DNA of 40,729 nt from Ignavibacteria bacterium. Its GTDB lineage: Bacteria; Bacteroidota; Ignavibacteria; Kapaibacteriales; Kapaibacteriaceae. The translations under genes and the position numbers were made by a program. How positions within the stretch are numbered: the first letter of the stretch is position 1; each line of letters begins with the position of its first letter. Location: contig CANHFG010000013.1 of assembly GCA_947459875.1 (NCBI GenBank), positions 1 through 40,729 on the forward strand, written 5' to 3'. The notes under the pieces were generated by a model that saw nothing but the letters and a program-made list of their open reading frames with translations, searched no databases and was not told where the DNA came from. Below, piece after piece: positions 3,192 to 35,100 of this stretch.

Positions 3192-3219
3192 CACACCTCA
3201 CACTTCACACCTCACATCA
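3192..3219. repeat. Heptad tandem repeat, CACACCT type, 4 units
   Basis: Four in-phase 7-bp units read CACACCT, CACACTT, CACACCT, CACATCA. The array covers the stop codon (TGA on the minus strand, 3217-3219) of the anti-sigma-like gene and fills the spacer before the receptor promoter. The same unit recurs at 5542-5569, on the other side of the sigma-factor operon. Confidence 0.75.
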
Positions 3220-19351: not shown

Positions 19352-19355
19352 CGCA

Positions 19356-19397
19356 GGTTTCGGGTTTCAGGTTTCGGGTTTCGGGTTTCAGGTTTCA
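19356..19397. repeat. Heptad tandem repeat GGTTTC[A/G], 6 units
   Basis: Six uninterrupted 7-bp units end in the order G,A,G,G,A,A after GGTTTC. The array lies upstream of typA and is in inverted orientation to the array at 19512-19574. Read as protein it gives the spurious KPETRNPKPETRN extension of typA. The same unit recurs at 34350-34384. Confidence 0.85.
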
Positions 19398-19511
19398 GAT
19401 CAAGCGGCCCATCATTGTGCGCGCCTTCTGATGTGCTGGTAGCAATGATGAGGCGGTCCAAATAATAGTCATTAGGCCAAGTGAGTTACATGCTCGCCCG
19501 TCATGCCTCAC

Positions 19512-19574
19512 GAAACCTGAAACCCGAAACCCGAAACCTGAAACCTGAAACCTGAAACCCGAAACCTAAAACCT
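19512..19574. repeat. Heptad tandem repeat GAAACC[T/C], 9 units, inverted partner of 19356-19397
   Basis: Nine in-phase units; on the minus strand they read GGTTTTA then GGTTTC[G/A]. The array begins at the stop codon (TAG, 19575-19573) of the lipoprotein gene. With the array at 19356-19397 it could form a stem of up to about 40 bp around a 114-base loop in a minus-strand transcript. The 257-base spacer between the two genes contains little else recognisable. Confidence 0.85.
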
Positions 19575-20109
19575 AGAAATAATTCGATTCATCTCTCCAG
19601 CGCACGATCTTCCAGGGGTCGGAGATGGTGGGGCGTTCGACGAGGAGGTTCACGCGACCCTGAGCGCGGAGGACATCGGCGGGGTTGAACGTGATGGTGA
19701 GGTTAAAGCCGCGGGAGATGTTCTTCGTAAGACTGTCTCCGTCGGCAAGGATGACGTCGTTCCAGACCAGGTCGAGCTGCTGGGCGGCCATGAAGAGACC
19801 GTTGGTGGCGAGCATGTCTTCGTCCCGACCCCAAGTGACATCGACGCCCTGGTCGTAGTTGCGGTAGACGAAGGTGAAGTTGCGTGCCAGAAGCCGTCCG
19901 TACGTAAGTGTATCGCGGAACAGGTAGGCGTATCGAAAGTTCTGGAATAGCCCTTCTATTGTGCGCTGGTCCCCGAGAACGTTATCGCCCCCTGACTCAT
20001 CGAGAGAGGGGGCGAAGGGGTTAACGCAGGATGTGCCGATAACAATAAGCACGGTCATCATCGCTGCCACGACGAGAGCTCGTGACGAAGATGAGAGGTG
20101 CCGCATCAT
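19573..20109 (-). CDS. Lipoprotein of unknown function, NTF2-like (paralogue A)
   Basis: The 178-residue protein has a signal peptide ending in the lipobox VIGTSC (lipid-modified C28). The body contains a FQNFRYAYLFRDTLTYGRLL helix and ends in NLLVERPTISDPWKIVRWRDE. This layout of an N-terminal helix around a cone-like sheet with a terminal WxIxRWRD strand resembles NTF2/SnoaL-like small domains. The protein at 20593-21177 has the same ending and layout, so the two look like paralogues. It is probably anchored to the outer or inner membrane and its function is unknown. Confidence 0.75.
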   Translation of the reverse strand: MMRHLSSSSRALVVAAMMTVLIVIGTSCVNPFAPSLDESGGDNVLGDQRTIEGLFQNFRYAYLFRDTLTYGRLLARNFTFVYRNYDQGVDVTWGRDEDMLATNGLFMAAQQLDLVWNDVILADGDSLTKNISRGFNLTITFNPADVLRAQGRVNLLVERPTISDPWKIVRWRDESNYF

Positions 20110-27924: not shown

Positions 27925-30366
27925 TTAAGGATTTTCGGGCCAATCGTGCTTTGGATAGCGACCTTTCATCTCTTTTCGTACCGCTTGGTATGATCCGCTC
28001 CAGAATCCGGCAAGATCGCGGGTCTTCTGAATGGGCCTTTCGGCCGGGGAGAGCAGCTCGATGGTGAGCGGAACATTCCCATTGGCTACCGTCGGCGTTC
28101 GCTTCACGCCGAGCATGAACTGCAGGCGTACGGCGGCAAGGGGCTGATCGGGATTGGAGTAATCGATGACAACTTCGCGTCCTTTGGGTGGCTTGTACAG
28201 CTCGGGTGCGCACCGATCGACAAGGGTCTTCTGCTCCCGTGAGAGCATCTCCCTCAAGGGACGCATCAGGTCCAGCTTCTGCAGGTCGGCCAGTGAGCGC
28301 AGTCCCACGAGGTGGGGCGCAAGCCACTCCTCAACGGTATTTGAGAGTAATTCGTCGGAAAGATCGGGGAGCTCGGCGCCCGTATGCTGACGTGTGAAGG
28401 TCACCCGATTGCGCAGGCGCTCAGCCCCCTCACTCCAGGGCAGATTCTCAATACCGCGCCGGGCAAGCTCCCGGGCAAAGGCGGCAGCCAGTTCCCGCGG
28501 ATCTGCATTGGCATTGGCCTTTGTGTCAATGACAATGGATCCGAGCATGGTTGCCGTACGCGCTACGATGCGTCCGTCCCGGTCGTTCCAGCCGGTCTCC
28601 ACAAGCGACGTAAGATCACTGGCAAAGACAATGCGCACACTTGCCAGGCTGACCGGCGCGGCGATGGCGATGCGTGGCTCGGAGGCAGATCCGTCCAGGT
28701 CGGCCACGGCAAGCCACTCGGAGCGGGCCAGTGGGTCGGCCTGCATGATCGACACCGTGCGTCCGTTGCGCAGCAGGTAGCGTCCATCACCCTTGCTCCG
28801 TGCAAGGCGCTCGGGGTAGGCAAGGGCGATGAGAACTCCCTCGACATCTTCATCGGAGATGGTGTGTCCTACGCTGGATGCGTCATGGGGCTTGCGCAGC
28901 GCCTGCTGACGTTTGCGCGCATGCATGATGGCCGCTCGGTCGGCATGCGGATCACTCGCCCCCTGCAAGGCATCAAGACGCCGGCGCACATCACTCATGC
29001 GCTCGCCTTTGAGCAGGTCTCGCTCGCCAATGATGGCCGCAATACCCGATGCGCGATTCCAGTCGATGCCAAACTCTCTCGAGCGCACAAGCATGTGAGC
29101 GATGCGCGGATGTGTACCATAGCGCAGCAGCTCGCGTCCGTGGCGGGTGATGCTGTTCGTTGCATCAAGTGCTCCGAGCTGACGCAGAAGTTCACGTCCC
29201 TGAGCAACATTGCCGGCGGGGGGCTGCTCCAGCCACGGCAGATCTGCGACGTCCACGCCAAAGCTGGCCACCTCAAGGATGAGACTTGAGCAGTCGGCCA
29301 CGAGGATCTCGCTGGTACGACGCTCCGGCAGCTGAGCATGTTCTTTTTCGGTCCATAGCCGGATGCAGCGTCCGGGTGCGGTACGTCCGGCCCGCCCCCT
29401 TCGTTGCTCGGCAGCATCCTTTGAAACGCTCACCGTCGTCAGATGCGTCATACCCGATCGTGGGTCGAAACGGGGCTCCCTGGAACGTCCACCGTCGACG
29501 ACCGTCCGCACGCCGTCGATCGTGAGCGACGTTTCGGCGATGGCCGTCGAAAGGATAACGCGGCGCACACGCGACGCCGGACGCAGCACCGCGTCCTGCG
29601 CATCGGCCGCAAGCTCACCATGCAGGATCATCACTTCAGCGCCATCAAGCGCATCGGACCTGGCAAGCAGCGCCTCCTGCGTGCGGCGGATCTCGGCCTG
29701 ACCCGGCAGGAAGCAGAGAATGTCGCCCAGGTCGTCGCGGATCGCATCACGTACAGCCGCCGCCATGAGCTCGGGAAGGGGCTTGTCGGACACGCTACGC
29801 AGGTAGGTTGTCTCCACCGGAAACGTACTGCCCTGACTGGCAACGCGCTCAGCATCGGGCATGATCGTAGAAAAGTTTAGCGACCCGATCGTGGCCGACA
29901 TTACCAAAACACGCAGTTCGTTTCGGAGCAGTGCGCGCGACGTAAGCGTCAATGCAAGCCCCGTATCGGCATTCAGCGACCTCTCGTGAAACTCATCGAA
30001 GATCACTAGCCCCACACCGCTCAGCTCCGGGTCGCGCGCAAGCTGCCGCGTGAGCACACCCTCGGTCACCACTTCAATGCGTGTTGCCTCACTTACCGCC
30101 GACTCCATTCGCATGCGGTATCCGACGGTCTGTCCGACCTGTTCTCCCAGCAGCGTCGCCATCCTCCGTGCCGCGGCCTTGGCCGCCAGACGGCGCGGCT
30201 CGAGCATCACGATCTTCTTCCCTGCAAGCCACGGCTCATTTACTAGCGCCAGCGGCACCATCGTCGTCTTGCCCGCCCCAGGGGGCGCCTCAAGAATACA
30301 CGGCACGTTCCGCGATAGCACACCGCAGATGTCGGGCAGAACAGAGGTGATCGGGAGGGAGAGCAT
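27925..30366 (-). CDS. hrpB: ATP-dependent helicase HrpB
   Basis: The 813-residue DEAH-box helicase has Walker A APPGAGKTT (27-35), DEFHER in motif II, SAT in motif III, the second RecA domain with QRRGRAGRTAPGRCIRLWTE, then the HrpB-specific C-terminal region ending in WPENP. Length matches HrpB. The frame continues 36 codons upstream through a heptad array, giving a repetitive VPSTQYPVP stretch not present in homologues, so the start is ATG 30366, the first codon after the array. HrpB is of unclear physiological function in bacteria. Because the array ends at the start codon, the leader would be repeat sequence. Confidence 0.95.
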   Translation of the reverse strand: MLSLPITSVLPDICGVLSRNVPCILEAPPGAGKTTMVPLALVNEPWLAGKKIVMLEPRRLAAKAAARRMATLLGEQVGQTVGYRMRMESAVSEATRIEVVTEGVLTRQLARDPELSGVGLVIFDEFHERSLNADTGLALTLTSRALLRNELRVLVMSATIGSLNFSTIMPDAERVASQGSTFPVETTYLRSVSDKPLPELMAAAVRDAIRDDLGDILCFLPGQAEIRRTQEALLARSDALDGAEVMILHGELAADAQDAVLRPASRVRRVILSTAIAETSLTIDGVRTVVDGGRSREPRFDPRSGMTHLTTVSVSKDAAEQRRGRAGRTAPGRCIRLWTEKEHAQLPERRTSEILVADCSSLILEVASFGVDVADLPWLEQPPAGNVAQGRELLRQLGALDATNSITRHGRELLRYGTHPRIAHMLVRSREFGIDWNRASGIAAIIGERDLLKGERMSDVRRRLDALQGASDPHADRAAIMHARKRQQALRKPHDASSVGHTISDEDVEGVLIALAYPERLARSKGDGRYLLRNGRTVSIMQADPLARSEWLAVADLDGSASEPRIAIAAPVSLASVRIVFASDLTSLVETGWNDRDGRIVARTATMLGSIVIDTKANANADPRELAAAFARELARRGIENLPWSEGAERLRNRVTFTRQHTGAELPDLSDELLSNTVEEWLAPHLVGLRSLADLQKLDLMRPLREMLSREQKTLVDRCAPELYKPPKGREVVIDYSNPDQPLAAVRLQFMLGVKRTPTVANGNVPLTIELLSPAERPIQKTRDLAGFWSGSYQAVRKEMKGRYPKHDWPENP

Positions 30367-30369
30367 GGG

Positions 30370-30446
30370 CACTGGGTACTGGGGACTGGGTACTGGGTAC
30401 TGGGTACTGGGGACTGGGTACTGGGTACTGGGTACTGGGGACTGAC
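30370..30446. repeat. Heptad tandem repeat [T/G]ACTGGG, 11 units (G-quadruplex-capable)
   Basis: Eleven in-phase units of 7 bp; first bases in order are C,T,G,T,T,T,G,T,T,T,G and the last unit ends GAC. Regular GGG tracts separated by 4-nt or shorter loops satisfy the usual G-quadruplex pattern on the plus strand, the template strand for hrpB. The array starts 3 bases before the hrpB ATG and is the inverted partner of the array at 30583-30613. Confidence 0.85.
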
Positions 30447-30574
30447 CGTCATCCCTGCGAAGGTAGGAATCCACGTCTCATCCGATCGTAGGGTCGCAGC
30501 ATGCTGCGACCCTCCCTTCGGATGGGGCGGAATCTCTGTCTGATTGCGTCATTGTTGCTTTCGCGGGAATGACG
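30447..30574. mobile_element. MITE-like nested palindromic element (128 bp)
   Basis: Terminal inverted repeats CGTCATCCCTGCGAAGG (left) and, reverse-complemented, CGTCATTCCCGCGAAAG (right) flank a core holding CATCCGA (479-485) paired with TCGGATG (518-524) and, inside, the perfect 24-base palindrome at 30490-30513 (half-site AGGGTCGCAGCA). The ends resemble the ATTCCCGCGAAAGCGGGAAT type of repeat found dispersed in many bacteria. No transposase is present. It is inserted between the two inverted [T/G]ACTGGG arrays. Confidence 0.55.
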
Positions 30575-30582
30575 ATAACGTC

Positions 30583-30613
30583 CCCAGTACCCAGTACCCA
30601 GTACCCAGTACCC
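30583..30613. repeat. Heptad tandem repeat CCCAGTA, 4.4 units, inverted partner of 30370-30446
   Basis: Four exact CCCAGTA units plus a final CCC. The array is reverse-complementary to the TACTGGG array on the other side of the MITE-like element and directly abuts the degraded gcvP 3' copy. The 312-base spacer from hrpB to the DUF1569 gene consists of these arrays, the palindromic element and the gcvP fragment. Confidence 0.85.
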
Positions 30614-30614
30614 G

Positions 30615-30668
30615 AATTCAAACATATTCTTCAACCAACGTGCACGTCGCGGTCTCCGTGGGCGTTGC
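30615..30668 (-). pseudogene. Degraded duplicate of the gcvP 3' end
   Basis: Compared with gcvP 31472-31537, this stretch matches closely from the stop-codon region back into the gene. They share CGCGGTCTCCGTGGGCGTT and the last codons (encoding VEEYV and TGA), but this copy lacks 11 bases (the region corresponding to 31505-31516), which shifts the frame. It is too short to encode anything. It lies 10 bases beyond the DUF1569 gene stop. A remnant of an insertion or duplication event is the likely explanation. Confidence 0.8.
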
Positions 30669-30678
30669 CGCAGGCGCA

Positions 30679-31128
30679 TTACACCCTGAACTGACGCAGG
30701 TGATGGTCGACATGCTTGTACATCATGTTGTTCCATTCGTCGCTGGTTAGTGGTCCAAGCCCGTAGTGACGTCGGCCTTCGAAGAAGAGACGCCCCTTTG
30801 CTGAAAACTGATGAATGAGTTCTTTGAGGCGTTCCCTGTTGGGCTCAAACATGCTATCAGGGGGCATGATCATGGCGCGCACGGTCAGAAGGCCCTGTTT
30901 GTAGGGCACATCATTTGTCATCCTGCGCTTGTAGAATAGCAACATGATGACACGTAAGTAAATGGGTGCCCGAGCAGTGCCCGATCCCAATGCCTGTACG
31001 TAGGGTATACAACAGTGTCCCAGCATCTGGGCGACATTCATTTTCCCCCACAAGGGCTGTGCGTCGGGTGTGAGCAAGTCGATCCTCGCACAGAGTGCAT
31101 CAGCAGTCTTTTCGTCCCAGATGTCCAT
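30679..31128 (-). CDS. DUF1569-family protein
   Basis: The protein is 149 residues from ATG 31128 (MDIWDEKTADALCARIDLL); an upstream ATG 31179 lies in repeat sequence and is less likely. It carries the DUF1569/DinB-like features PLWGKMNVAQMLGHCC (the N-terminal helix with a histidine), FYKRRM and the conserved C-terminal GPLTSDEWNNMMYKHVDHHL, a histidine-rich end typical of the family. DinB-like proteins are four-helix metal-binding domains, many of unknown activity. The gene is bounded by the gcvP end and its degraded copy. Confidence 0.85.
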   Translation of the reverse strand: MDIWDEKTADALCARIDLLTPDAQPLWGKMNVAQMLGHCCIPYVQALGSGTARAPIYLRVIMLLFYKRRMTNDVPYKQGLLTVRAMIMPPDSMFEPNRERLKELIHQFSAKGRLFFEGRRHYGLGPLTSDEWNNMMYKHVDHHLRQFRV

Positions 31129-31173
31129 ACTGTTTCCAAATGAAAGAGTTGTTGGGTTGCGGTGACATGTAAT

Positions 31174-31208
31174 CGTCATCGATTATCCGTCATCAATCAT
31201 CTGTCATC
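31174..31208. repeat. Heptad tandem repeat [N3]CATC type, 5 units
   Basis: Five in-phase units read CGTCATC, GATTATC, CGTCATC, AATCATC, TGTCATC. They lie upstream of the DUF1569 gene. The following 31218-31259 also has 7/14-bp periodicity (GCGGGCG, GGACTGC, TCGGGCG, AGACGAA, GCGGGCG, AGACTAC). Confidence 0.65.
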
Positions 31209-31262: not shown

Positions 31263-31470
31263 TCCTTCCGTCCTTCCGTCCTTCCGTCCTTCCGTCCTTC
31301 CGTCCTTCCGTCCTTCCGTCCTTCCGTCCTTCCGTAATTCCGTAATTCCGTAATTCCGTCCTTCCGTAATTCCGTAATTCCGTAATTCCGTAATTCCGTA
31401 ATTCCGTAATTCCGTAATTCCGTAATTCCGTCCTTCCGTAATTCCGTCCTTCCGTAATTCCGTAATCCCG
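31263..31470. repeat. Tandem repeat T[CC/AA]TTCCG, 8-bp unit, 26 units in two variants
   Basis: Twenty-six units of exactly 8 bp, either TCCTTCCG or TAATTCCG (one reads TAATCCCG). Order from low to high coordinate: nine CC, three AA, one CC, eight AA, one CC, one AA, one CC, two AA. A further degenerate unit, TAATTCTC, runs into the gcvP stop codon (31477-31479). No indels break phase. The 348-base spacer between the DUF1569 ATG and gcvP is almost entirely repeats. Confidence 0.92.
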
Positions 31471-31476
31471 TAATTC

Positions 31477-34335
31477 TCAAACGTATTCTTCTACCGACGG
31501 GCACGTGCAGATGAGCACGCGGTCTCCGTGGGCGTTGTCCACGCGGCCAATCGATGGCCAGAACTTGCGGTCGCGCACCCATGGGAGCGGGAAGGCAGCG
31601 ACCTGACGGGAGTAGGTGTGTTCCCACGTATCGGCGGTGACGACGAACATCGTGTGCGGGGCGTTCTTCAGCGGATTGTCCTTGGCATCGATGGCGCCGG
31701 TGCAGACATTCTCGATTTCGGTACGGATCGAGAGCAGCATCTCGATGAACCTGTCCAGCTCGGCCTTGCTTTCGCTTTCGGTCGGCTCGATCATGATGGT
31801 GCCCGGAACCGGGAAGCTGAGCGTCGGTGCATGGTAGCCGTAATCCATCATGCGCTTAGCAACATCTTCGGCCTCGATGCCGCCACGCTGCTTGAACTCA
31901 CGCAGGTCCACGATCATCTCGTGAGCGCAGCGTCCGTTGGTGCCGGAATAGAGGATCGGATAATGCTTTTCGATGCGACTCTTGATGTAGTTCGCATTCA
32001 GGATCGCGCGCTTGGTGGCATTGGTGAGCCCCGTGCCGCCCATCATGCGGATGTATGCCCAGGAGATGAGCAGGATGGATGCCGAGCCCCATGGAGCTGC
32101 GGAAACAGGGCCAACATGGTTGACGTCGATCGGGTTGATGACAGGATGAGACGGCAGGTAGGGGGCGAGCTCCGCCGTGCAGCAGATCGGACCCATTCCC
32201 GGACCGCCCCCTCCGTGGGGGATGCAGAACGTCTTGTGCAGATTCAGGTGACAGACGTCAGCGCCGATGGCACGCGGTGAGGTCAGGCCCACCTGGGCAT
32301 TCATGTTCGCACCATCCATGTAGACGCGTCCACCATGCTCGTGCACAATGGCGCAGATGTCCTTGATGGCTTCTTCGAACACGCCGTGGGTTGATGGGTA
32401 GGTGACCATCAGGGCGGCAAGGTTTGCCGAGTTGGCTTCTGCCTGCGCGCGCAGATCGGCTACGTCAACGTGACCATGGGCATCGCTCTTAACGACGACG
32501 ACCTTCATGCCGGCCATGACGGCCGAGGCGGGGTTCGTGCCGTGGGCAGAGGATGGGATGAGCACTACATTGCGGTGCTGCTCGCCCCGTGCATGATGGA
32601 AGCCGCGGATGGCAAGGAGTCCGGCATACTCGCCCTGCGCACCGGCATTGGGCTGCAGCGAACAGGCATCAAAGCCGGTGATCTCGTTCAGCCACGTGCT
32701 GAGTTCGGAGAAGATGCGCTGGTAGCCCTGCGTCTGCGATGTTGGTGCAAACGGGTGAATACGGTTGAACTCCGGCCATGTGATCGGGATCATCTCTGCT
32801 GTGGCGTTGAGCTTCATCGTGCACGAACCGAGCGAGATCATCGAATGCGTCAGCGACAGGTCCTTGTTCTCCAGACGCTTCATGTAGCGAAGCATCTCGT
32901 GCTCTGTGTGGTAGCTGTTGAACACCGGATGCGTCAGGTAGCTCGACGTGCGGGCAAGCGAAGCAGGCAGTCCGCTCGTGGCCGTGTGAATGAGCTCTAC
33001 CGCAGATGGCGCAGAAGCCCCCTTCACCGAAGCAAAAGCGTTGAGAATATCCTGCACGTCGGCAACGGTCGTCGTCTCATCAAGCGATACGCCAACACAG
33101 GCGCCGTCGCCTCGATAGCGCAGATTGATGGCAAGGGGCTCGCAGGCCGCACGCACCGCTTGCTGATCGGCATTGACGCAGAGCGTGTCGAACCAGGTGT
33201 CGTTGCACATGGTGTAGCCAAGCGACGCCAAACCCGATGCAAGGGCCGAGGTGAGCGTGTGAATGCGATGGGCAATGCCGCGCAGACCCTCGGGTCCGTG
33301 ATACACGGCGTACATCGCCGAGACGTTGGCAAGCAGCGCCTGGGCGGTGCAGATGTTTGATGTGGCCTTATCGCGTCGGATGTGCTGCTCACGCGTCTGC
33401 AGGGCCATGCGCAGAGCAAGGTTGCCCTGGGCATCCACGCTCACGCCGATGATACGTCCGGGGAGAATGCGCTTGTAGGCCTCGCGCGTCGCGAGGAAGC
33501 CGGCATGAGGTCCGCCGTAACCGAGCGGCACGCCAAGACGTTGTGCCGTACCAACGGCTACATCGGCACCCCATTCGCCCGGAGGCGTCAGGTGCGTAAG
33601 GGCCATGAGGTCCGTGCCGACCGTTACCAGAGCGCCCCCTGCATGAGCACGCTCGCAGAATTCCGTGTAATCGCGCACCGAGCCATCGCCGGCAGGGTAT
33701 TGAACGTATGCACCGAAGATCGACCCGTCAAATGATACCGTTTTCCAGTCTCCAACAACCACGTCGATGCCCAGAGGCGTCGCCCGCGTGCGGATAACCT
33801 CAAGCGTCTGCGGGTACACGTTCGCATCCACGAACATCGTCGTGGCTGCCTTTACTGCCGCCGCGCGCGAAGCATACATCATATGCATTGCCTCGGCAGC
33901 TGCCGTTGCTTCATCCAGCAACGACGCGCCGGCAATGTCCATCTTCGTAAGATCTGTCACGAGCGTCTGGAAGTTCAACAGACTCTCGAGTCGACCCTGG
34001 GCGATCTCCGCCTGGTAGGGCGTGTACTGGGTGTACCATCCCGGATTCTCGATCAGGTTACGCAGGATCACCGGCGGCGTGACGGTGTCGTAGTACCCCA
34101 TGCCGATATACGAGCGAGCAATCGTGTTCTTCGCAGCGATCGTCTTCAGCTCTGCCAGCATCTCTATCTCCGTCAGCGGCGATGGCAGGTCAAGGGGCTT
34201 CTCAAGACGAATCTGCGCTGGCACCGTCTGCTGCACCAACTGGTCAATGCTCGAGGCATCAACCGCTGCCAGCATGGCCTGAATGTCAGATTGGGAAAGT
34301 CCGTGGTGTCTGTTCTCGAAGATGTCGTGGTGCAT
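31477..34335 (-). CDS. gcvP: Glycine dehydrogenase (decarboxylating), glycine cleavage P-protein
   Basis: The 952-residue single-chain P-protein decarboxylates glycine with pyridoxal phosphate and transfers aminomethyl to lipoyl-H-protein. The catalytic PLP lysine is K701 in [18 protein letters not shown]. Other hallmarks are [17 protein letters not shown] near residue 78, [38 protein letters not shown] and HGTNPASA in the second half. It is the fused N- and C-half form, so the length is normal. It is flanked on both sides by tandem-repeat arrays, and its 3' end is duplicated about 0.86 kb downstream. gcvT, gcvH and lpd are not in this window. Confidence 0.97.
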
Positions 34336-34349
34336 TGAGCAGGTGTTAG

Positions 34350-34384
34350 GTTTTAGGTTTTAGGTTTCAGGTTTCAGGTTTCAG
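34350..34384. repeat. Heptad tandem repeat GGTTT[T/C]A, 5 units
   Basis: Units read GGTTTTA twice, then GGTTTCA three times, directly before the CACT[C/T]GT array and just upstream of the gcvP start. This is the same unit family as at 19356-19397 and 19512-19574, 15 kb away. Confidence 0.8.
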
Positions 34385-34387
34385 GTT

Positions 34388-34695
34388 CACTCGTCACTCG
34401 TCACTTGTCACTTGTCACTCGTCACTTGTCACTCGTCACTCGTCACTCGTCACTCGTCACTCGTCACTTGTCACTCGTCACTCGCCACTTGTCTCTTGTC
34501 ACTCGTCACTTGTCATTCGTCACTTGTCACTTGTCACTCGTCACTTGTCACTTGTCACTCGTCACTTGTCACTTGTCACTCGTCACTCGTCACTCGTCAC
34601 TCGTCACTCGTCACTTGTCACTTGTCACTCGTCACTTGTCACTCGTCACTTGTCACTTGTCACTCGTCACTCGTTACTTGTCACTCGTCACTCAT
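34388..34695. repeat. Heptad tandem repeat CACT[C/T]GT, 44 units
   Basis: Forty-four in-phase 7-bp units, nearly all CACTCGT or CACTTGT, with a few variants (CACTCGC, CTCTTGT, CATTCGT, CGTTACTT-like) and a final CACTCAT. There is no indel across 308 bp. The unit variants differ by a C/T transition at the CpG. The array ends inside the stop codon region of the heavy-metal-associated gene (TGA on minus strand, 34690-34688). All three plus-strand frames are open because three units make seven codons. This fills the 352-base gene-free stretch 34336-34687. Confidence 0.95.
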
Positions 34696-35023
34696 GCTCT
34701 CTATCCCGATACCGGCAGCAGTCGGGGAGCTTGCTGTATGCTTCGTCGTTGCCTTTGACGTCCTCGGTATCGTAGCCGGCGGCGGCAATGGCCTTTTTGA
34801 CATCTGCTGGTTTGACCTTGGCATCGTCGTAGACGGCTGTGAAGACCTTCGTCTTCTTGTCCCATGCAGCATCGCTGACGCCGTCGATTGATTCCGCAGC
34901 TTTGACAATACGTTTTTTGCAGGAGCCACAGTTCCCGGCGACCTTCAGTGTGAGTTTTTGCTCGGCGGCAAACAGTGCCACGGGAAGCATGAGCAGGGCG
35001 CAGAGCCGGAGGAGTATATTCAT
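34688..35023 (-). CDS. Exported heavy-metal-associated (HMA) domain protein
   Basis: The 111-residue protein has a signal peptide (LLRLCALLMLPVALFAAEQ) and one HMA/MerP-like domain with the metal-binding motif GNCGSCKKRI (C32, C35), ferredoxin-like strands, and a C-terminal CC pair in LPDCCRYRD. It probably binds Cu(I) or another soft metal in the periplasm. ATG 35023 is chosen because it gives the signal peptide; the upstream frame is unlike a gene. TATTTTTG (minus strand, 35100-35093) is a promoter candidate 70 nt upstream. It is divergent from the RND operon. The gene ends in the CACT[C/T]GT array. Confidence 0.85.
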   Translation of the reverse strand: MNILLRLCALLMLPVALFAAEQKLTLKVAGNCGSCKKRIVKAAESIDGVSDAAWDKKTKVFTAVYDDAKVKPADVKKAIAAAGYDTEDVKGNDEAYSKLPDCCRYRDREHE

Positions 35024-35092: not shown

Positions 35093-35100
35093 CAAAAATA
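35093..35100 (-). promoter_or_regulatory. TAnnTTTG promoter element of the HMA gene
   Basis: TATTTTTG on the minus strand, in the divergent spacer between the HMA gene and the RND adaptor gene and 70 nt before the HMA ATG. Confidence 0.45.

Follow-up and report, generated by a model that had tools for sequence, protein, structure and literature searches.

Dispersed heptanucleotide repeat arrays in the gene spacers of a Kapabacteria genome and its relatives

Background

Bacterial heptamer repeats have long been known, but they have no accepted origin or role. Long simple sequence repeats (LSSRs) with units of 5-11 nt, as the work of Mrazek et al. 2007 is summarized in later papers (PMC4679880, PMC4692102), have heptamers as their commonest long unit, are mostly intergenic, occur sporadically among relatives and have been proposed to arise by slippage. 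The heptamers GGGGA(C/T)T and GGGAATC of cyanobacteria and xanthomonads are intergenic, lie near the 3' ends of genes and are scarce between divergent genes (PMC4692102). TAACTGA repeats are found in Beggiatoaceae, cyanobacteria and Bacteroidetes, and reach up to 43 copies in some members of the latter two groups (PMC4679880). Dispersed palindromes of the REP/BIME type, which are associated with RAYT (Y1) transposases, form another class of intergenic repeats.

The stretch of DNA analyzed here, called the window below, is an entire contig of 40,729 nt (C13) from a 2.40-Mb, 150-contig Kapabacteria genome of the Candidatus Kapaibacterium type (G000). Four main families of repeat units are found in this genome: F1 (CACTYGT), F2 (GGTTTYR/GGTGTGA), F3 (GTACCCA/GTCCCCA) and the octamers of F4 (CCGTAATT/CCGTACTT/CCGTCCTT). 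The arrays resemble LSSRs, as these are summarized in the papers cited above, in being heptameric, mostly intergenic and patchy among relatives. They differ from that summary in that this uncultured lineage has approximately 35-48 heptad arrays per Mb, with up to 44 units, in a genome of 2.4 Mb, and in that period 8 is also common.

With the cyanobacterial and xanthomonad heptamers, including the STRR of Calothrix, the Kapabacteria arrays share a dispersed, intergenic distribution and a preference for gene 3' ends. The F3 variant CAGTCCC is even the same heptad as the Nostoc unit GGGGACT (PMC4692102). However, F1 lacks G-tracts, has only average self-structure and comes from another phylum, and many of the arrays are far longer than the four units that are typical there. 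Judged as members of the GGGGAYT class of cyanobacterial STRR, F1 and F2 fall outside and only the F3 variant GTCCCCA matches. TAACTGA repeats are likewise heptad arrays that fill spacers, are missing from close relatives and leave contigs ending in arrays (PMC4679880). Their unit is different, and those of the one Beggiatoaceae genome studied mostly sit just before start codons (PMC4679880), whereas the Kapabacteria arrays often adjoin stop codons or occupy convergent spacers.

The kind of repeat is already known, and what is new here is the lineage and a set of unusually informative relatives. The earlier note on this DNA knew of no description for the lineage, and our literature search also found no previous account of such repeats in Kapabacteria. 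Within the genus, closely related species either have or lack arrays, empty sites can be read, an array stands in place of a spacer that bears a promoter motif in relatives, and an edge recurs at stop codons; these features make array origin testable. The arrays, although of a known kind of simple repeat, are an unusually clear case of rapid and extensive spread.

A spacer filled with repeats upstream of gcvP

The F1 array (34388-34695, plus strand) consists of 44 CACTYGT heptads, which read as RAGTGAC units on the transcribed strand. All are in a single phase with zero indels, and TRF describes the same tract as 43.9 copies of period 7 with 0% indels (34387-34693, score 453). The unbroken run reported in the earlier note therefore stands, but its restriction to two variants does not: 39 of the 44 units are exactly CACTCGT or CACTTGT, and five carry one substitution (CACTCGC, CTCTTGT, CATTCGT, TACTTGT and CACTCAT). 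Matches to three F1 units with at most three mismatches number 42 in the window compared to 0.01 expected from shuffles, and the head-to-tail 7-bp units extend well beyond chance length, as in LSSRs. The GGTTTTA and GGTTTCA units that had been noticed before the array are also present as F2 heptads (34345-34387, plus strand; TRF 34340-34387), which separate the F1 array from the start codon of gcvP.

Transcription of this region on the minus strand proceeds from an HMA-domain protein gene through the array to gcvP. The upstream gene (34688-35023, minus strand; Pfam HMA 5.2e-8) has its stop codon inside the final repeat units. The downstream gene, encoding glycine dehydrogenase (31477-34335, minus strand; Pfam GDC-P 1.9e-189 and GcvP2_C), has its start 9 bp away from the repeats, which fill the whole spacer. 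Shuffled versions of the array RNA fold less well than the array itself (z -4.5). It folds into a series of two-base-pair stacks with an open centroid, and no functional fold is therefore claimed.

Other arrays are distributed along the window. An F4 octamer array of TTCCGTAA/TTCCGTCC units (31266-31476, plus strand) abuts the gcvP stop codon. Upstream of hrpB there is an F3 array of TGGGTAC heptads (30366-30444, plus strand) and a second F3 array in inverted orientation (30583-30613, minus strand). Units related to those next to the F1 array recur upstream of typA as an F2 array of GGTTTC[A/G] (19354-19398, plus strand) with an inverted partner (19512-19579, minus strand), and a short F2-like array of the GGTGTGA type is found at 3192-3216 (minus strand). 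The window thus has two inverted pairs of same-family heptad arrays, at 19354-19579 and 30366-30613, whose members are separated by approximately 115-140 bp.

The gcvP and hrpB genes are adjacent in several relatives. In the window they flank an inserted gene (30679-31179), which we take to carry the DUF1569 label, and this gene is bracketed by arrays and a copy of the gcvP tail. The copy corresponds to the last ~70 bp of gcvP (31477-31545) and lies at 30618-30676, with the DUF1569-like gene on one side and the F3 array that precedes hrpB on the other; its local score is 62, compared to a shuffled maximum of 29. Inspection by eye of the corresponding region of a congener, G001, shows the gene in reversed orientation with repeat arrays on both sides (L189 1-1500).

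Unit variation and order

The earlier note had offered two explanations for the CG/TG difference between F1 units, deamination of methylated cytosine and a coded arrangement. Symmetric deamination of methylated CpG predicts TG and CA alike, but at this site in G000 there are 55 TG units and a single CA unit. F1 units from other phyla display a similar bias (257 TG versus 6 CA), although that set was collected with a pattern allowing TG but not CA in its core, which makes the within-genome count the fairer one. Families F3 and F4 vary between A and C, away from CpG (GTACCCA/GTCCCCA and CCGTAATT/CCGTACTT). Deamination of this kind was rejected.

A coded arrangement fares no better. The longest repeated run of C/T variants in the window array is 10 units, close to the shuffle mean of 8.6 (p 0.25), so the two variants alternate only in a loose sense and their order is near random. 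Most other arrays do not have the same unit order. Array length, order and composition also vary between species at orthologous spacers; in two such spacers from related species, one array consists almost entirely of the CG variant and its counterpart is mixed. A higher-order repeat of 14 bp in the array at the end of contig C17 (p 0.0065) points to local duplication of blocks.

Families and positions of arrays across the genome

A census was conducted on a 687-kb sample of G000 comprising 14 contigs, four of which were chosen for carrying F1, as was the window itself. It contains 33 period-7 and 17 period-8 arrays, and 32 of the 33 heptad arrays belong to three families. When only contigs C1-C9 are considered, which were not selected for F1, there are 20 heptad arrays in 566 kb, or about 35 per Mb by our count. 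In contrast, 1,593 kb of the congener G010 yielded one period-7 array. The same G010 sample contains 15 period-8 arrays, and the favored period varies by species.

The earlier note had made its reading depend on period-7 arrays being present elsewhere in the genome. Three consecutive F1 units have 243 matches across G000, compared to none for a reversed control pattern. The reading of the window array as one of the STRR/LSSR heptameric short tandem repeats is correct, and period-7 arrays occur throughout the genome.

The positions of arrays follow simple rules. Almost all (49 of 50) lie outside coding sequence supported by homology, in agreement with the mainly extragenic location of LSSRs. 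Arrays often abut stop codons, and of the 38 edges that face a gene 3' end, 22 are no more than 15 bp from it. Half of the junctions with arrays are convergent (8 of 16 versus 32 of 273 others, p 0.0004), and one in 16 is divergent (versus 44 of 273, p 0.48). We also considered whether arrays mark hot spots of rearrangement. Synteny with G010 is broken at 3 of 16 array junctions and at 35 of 346 others (p 0.23), and this explanation was set aside on what is a small sample.

Arrays in related genomes

F1 is present in four of the 11 genomes of the same genus (G000, G001, G008 and G009). Of two genomes from a further genus in the family, G012 has F1 and its congener G017 does not. F1 is thus sporadic among close relatives, as is characteristic of LSSRs. 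F3 is confined to G000 and G008 among 22 relatives. Identities between gcvP sequences (94, 90 and at most 85 percent) point to a single clade of array-bearing members, in which case array gain may have been a single event.

Comparisons of orthologous spacers reveal changes of family and of orientation. At one spacer, G000 has an F4 array and ZLKRG19 (Candidatus Kapaibacterium) an F1 array. In another member of Candidatus Kapaibacterium, ZLKRG33, an F1 array (L102 5370-5530) is inverted relative to G000 at a spacer that matches the ends of contigs C17 and C61, which are taken to be joined in G000 on the basis of the ZLKRG33 sequence.

Repeats have evidently disturbed the assembly, as 7 of 28 sampled contig ends fall in arrays, approximately ten times the expectation in a sample that includes contigs chosen for F1. 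The exact number of units may be compressed, since contigs of this assembly end in arrays. That the array itself is an assembly artefact is extremely improbable. An F1 array occupies the same spacer between the HMA gene and gcvP in G001, a congener that was assembled separately, and the genes on both sides are conserved.

Replacement of the HMA-gcvP spacer

A full-length gcvP orthologue is present in 12 of 13 relatives searched within the genus or family, and none was found in G008. In all 12 of these relatives the HMA gene adjoins gcvP, and in ten of them the two genes are separated by an ordinary spacer of 61-189 bp. Nine of the ten ordinary spacers contain TATTTTTG or TAATTTTG at positions -51 to -66 relative to the gcvP start. 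The tenth spacer, that of G012, holds no array and has no exact TAnnTTTG match either. The spacers of G000 (355 bp), G001 (315 bp) and G009 (163 bp) are largely repeat, and no TAnnTTTG was found in any of the three.

TAnnTTTG is the -7 element of Bacteroidota promoters, which fits its roughly 11-fold enrichment upstream of genes compared to the G000 genome at large. On the evidence of this motif, gcvP appears to have lost its own promoter. A copy of TATTTTTG remains upstream of the HMA gene (35093-35100, minus strand), where it is likely to be the surviving promoter for both genes. Since the motif is missing from the spacer and retained by the HMA gene, transcription of gcvP probably begins at the HMA promoter and reads through the repeat.

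Such an arrangement raises the possibility that the array is a contingency switch, in which the number of units tunes gcvP expression by phase variation. Its location between the HMA stop and the gcvP start, in place of a promoter region, and the variable length of this spacer among congeners would suit such a role. However, the neighboring genes in the window (gcvP, typA and hrpB) have housekeeping or metabolic functions, arrays favor convergent spacers away from promoters, and the families differ between species. Neither a sigma-70-like site nor TAnnTTTG was found within the window array. As judged from sequence, a switch is very doubtful.

Ancestrally, the HMA gene ended in CACGAGTAA or a similar sequence, which is already close to an F1 unit. 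Local seeding is therefore indistinguishable at this spacer from arrival by copying.

A recurrent edge past stop codons

Octamer arrays frequently begin with a common leader. Of the 17 octamer arrays, 8 have RGAAGA at their 5' edge, compared to 0.015 expected per edge (p 5e-11), although two of the eight are looser matches and one of these lies within the coding end of gcvP. Among gene 3' ends, the leader is present at 6 of the 28 that have an array and at 1 of the 388 that do not (p 4e-7). Five of the six GAAGAGAATTAC sites in G000 follow a long frame, 0-1 nt past its stop codon (TGA, TAA or TAG). GAAGAG directly follows stop codons at octamer array edges on contigs C1, C3, C37 and C61 of G000 (L312, L314, L316, L318 and L319), and the edge of one F3 heptad array, TGA-GAAGAA, is similar. 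These figures apply to a motif that was noticed in the same data before it was tested, and some GAAGAG loci are orthologous between G000 and G008, such that not all represent independent events.

The GAAGAG edge and the inverted F1 array suggest an insertion more specific than plain slippage, and both are a better fit to insertion or copying than to purely local growth. Arrays might spread as discrete elements that insert specifically, with a GAAGAG edge placed directly past a stop codon and a tract whose far end is variable. The leader statistics and the occurrence of F1 in opposite orientations in the same spacer of two species are in line with this idea. However, the leader is missing from the F1 array of the window and from most F1 and F2 arrays, and no common far end or target duplication of arrays was seen. 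No reverse transcriptase was found in array-bearing genomes, Y1 transposases do not track arrays, and the motif is post hoc, with some of its loci shared by descent between G000 and G008. Overall, we regard discrete elements as rather unlikely. A related conjecture, which we judge to be unlikely as well and a shade more so, is that an undescribed process deposits the GAAGAG leader after the stop codons of unrelated genes and then adds a tract of heptamer or octamer repeats belonging to one of a few fixed families. This process would replace the old spacer in either orientation, and would have acted recently enough to vary within the genus.

Growth and spread of the arrays

The window array is probably a non-coding heptanucleotide long simple sequence repeat, similar to STRR, that has grown by slippage, spread between spacers and been tolerated rather than selected. 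Growth would occur through the duplication of whole units, singly or in blocks, by a slipped-strand or unequal mechanism. Unit families would be copied from spacer to spacer within a genome by ectopic recombination or template switching, and arrays would be kept where loss of the spacer is tolerable, with no coded function. In these data no donor-recipient pair of arrays could be demonstrated, nor could a general unit order common to arrays.

Horizontal acquisition of the heptad family from other phyla, with a common generator, would provide a different source of arrays. A 34-bp F1 pattern has more than 100 matching stretches in many phyla, including exact arrays, and 34 of 80 hold both CG and TG variants. 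However, a search of 395 genomes of the phylum found F1 in seven and a reversed heptad of the same composition in six. With this control, cross-phylum sharing was discarded as evidence of transfer. There are only 1,170 heptad classes in total, and the equally wide occurrence of the reversed heptad means that independent recurrence is expected and shared origin is not needed. Furthermore, the consensus units of F2 and F3 are not among the other arrays that accompany F1 at those loci. Foreign acquisition is very improbable. Where F1 does thrive, however, it is much more numerous, with up to 213 matches per genome compared to at most 19 for the control.

Several specific generators were considered and rejected. 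No RVT_1 match was found in G000, G001, G009 or G012, which disfavors a telomerase-like or other reverse-transcriptase generator. Loss of mismatch repair is not supported for the array-bearing G000, G001, G008 and G009, which possess MutS and MutL (the only breaks in MutS of G000 are contig ends). Expansion driven by structure was dismissed, as the heptads of G000 fold no better than heptads of equal G+C content, and heptads of other genomes show just a slight gain in stability (mean percentile 0.41). A RAYT/Y1 transposase is not a convincing driver, as Y1 genes are also present in array-free congeners.

REP-like palindromes do accompany the arrays to some extent. Both types of repeat are dispersed, intergenic and carried by the same genomes, sometimes side by side. 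However, the heptad arrays lack palindromes and were not regularly found beside the Y1 genes that were examined. By the palindromic-unit definition of REP/RAYT elements the arrays fall outside this class, with no palindrome in their units and approximately median folding among heptads of equal G+C content. The REP-like palindrome CCCCGGGCCWWGGCCCGGGG was found only in G000, G001, G008 and G009, the same-genus genomes that have F1, and this co-occurrence may simply reflect one clade. A Y1 transposase gene on contig C60 of G008 (L301) has the REP-like palindrome CCCCGGGCCTTGGCCCGGGG 63 bp downstream, and another on contig C98 of G000 (L299) is surrounded by the REP-like CCCACGGCTGAAGCCGTGGG. These two genes and their flanking palindromes are likely to be RAYT-REP units. 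A further palindrome, GGGCGAGAC..GTCTCGCCC, has 24 copies in the 687-kb sample and none in G010, and seven copies lie within 150 bp of an array, compared to 2.7 expected.
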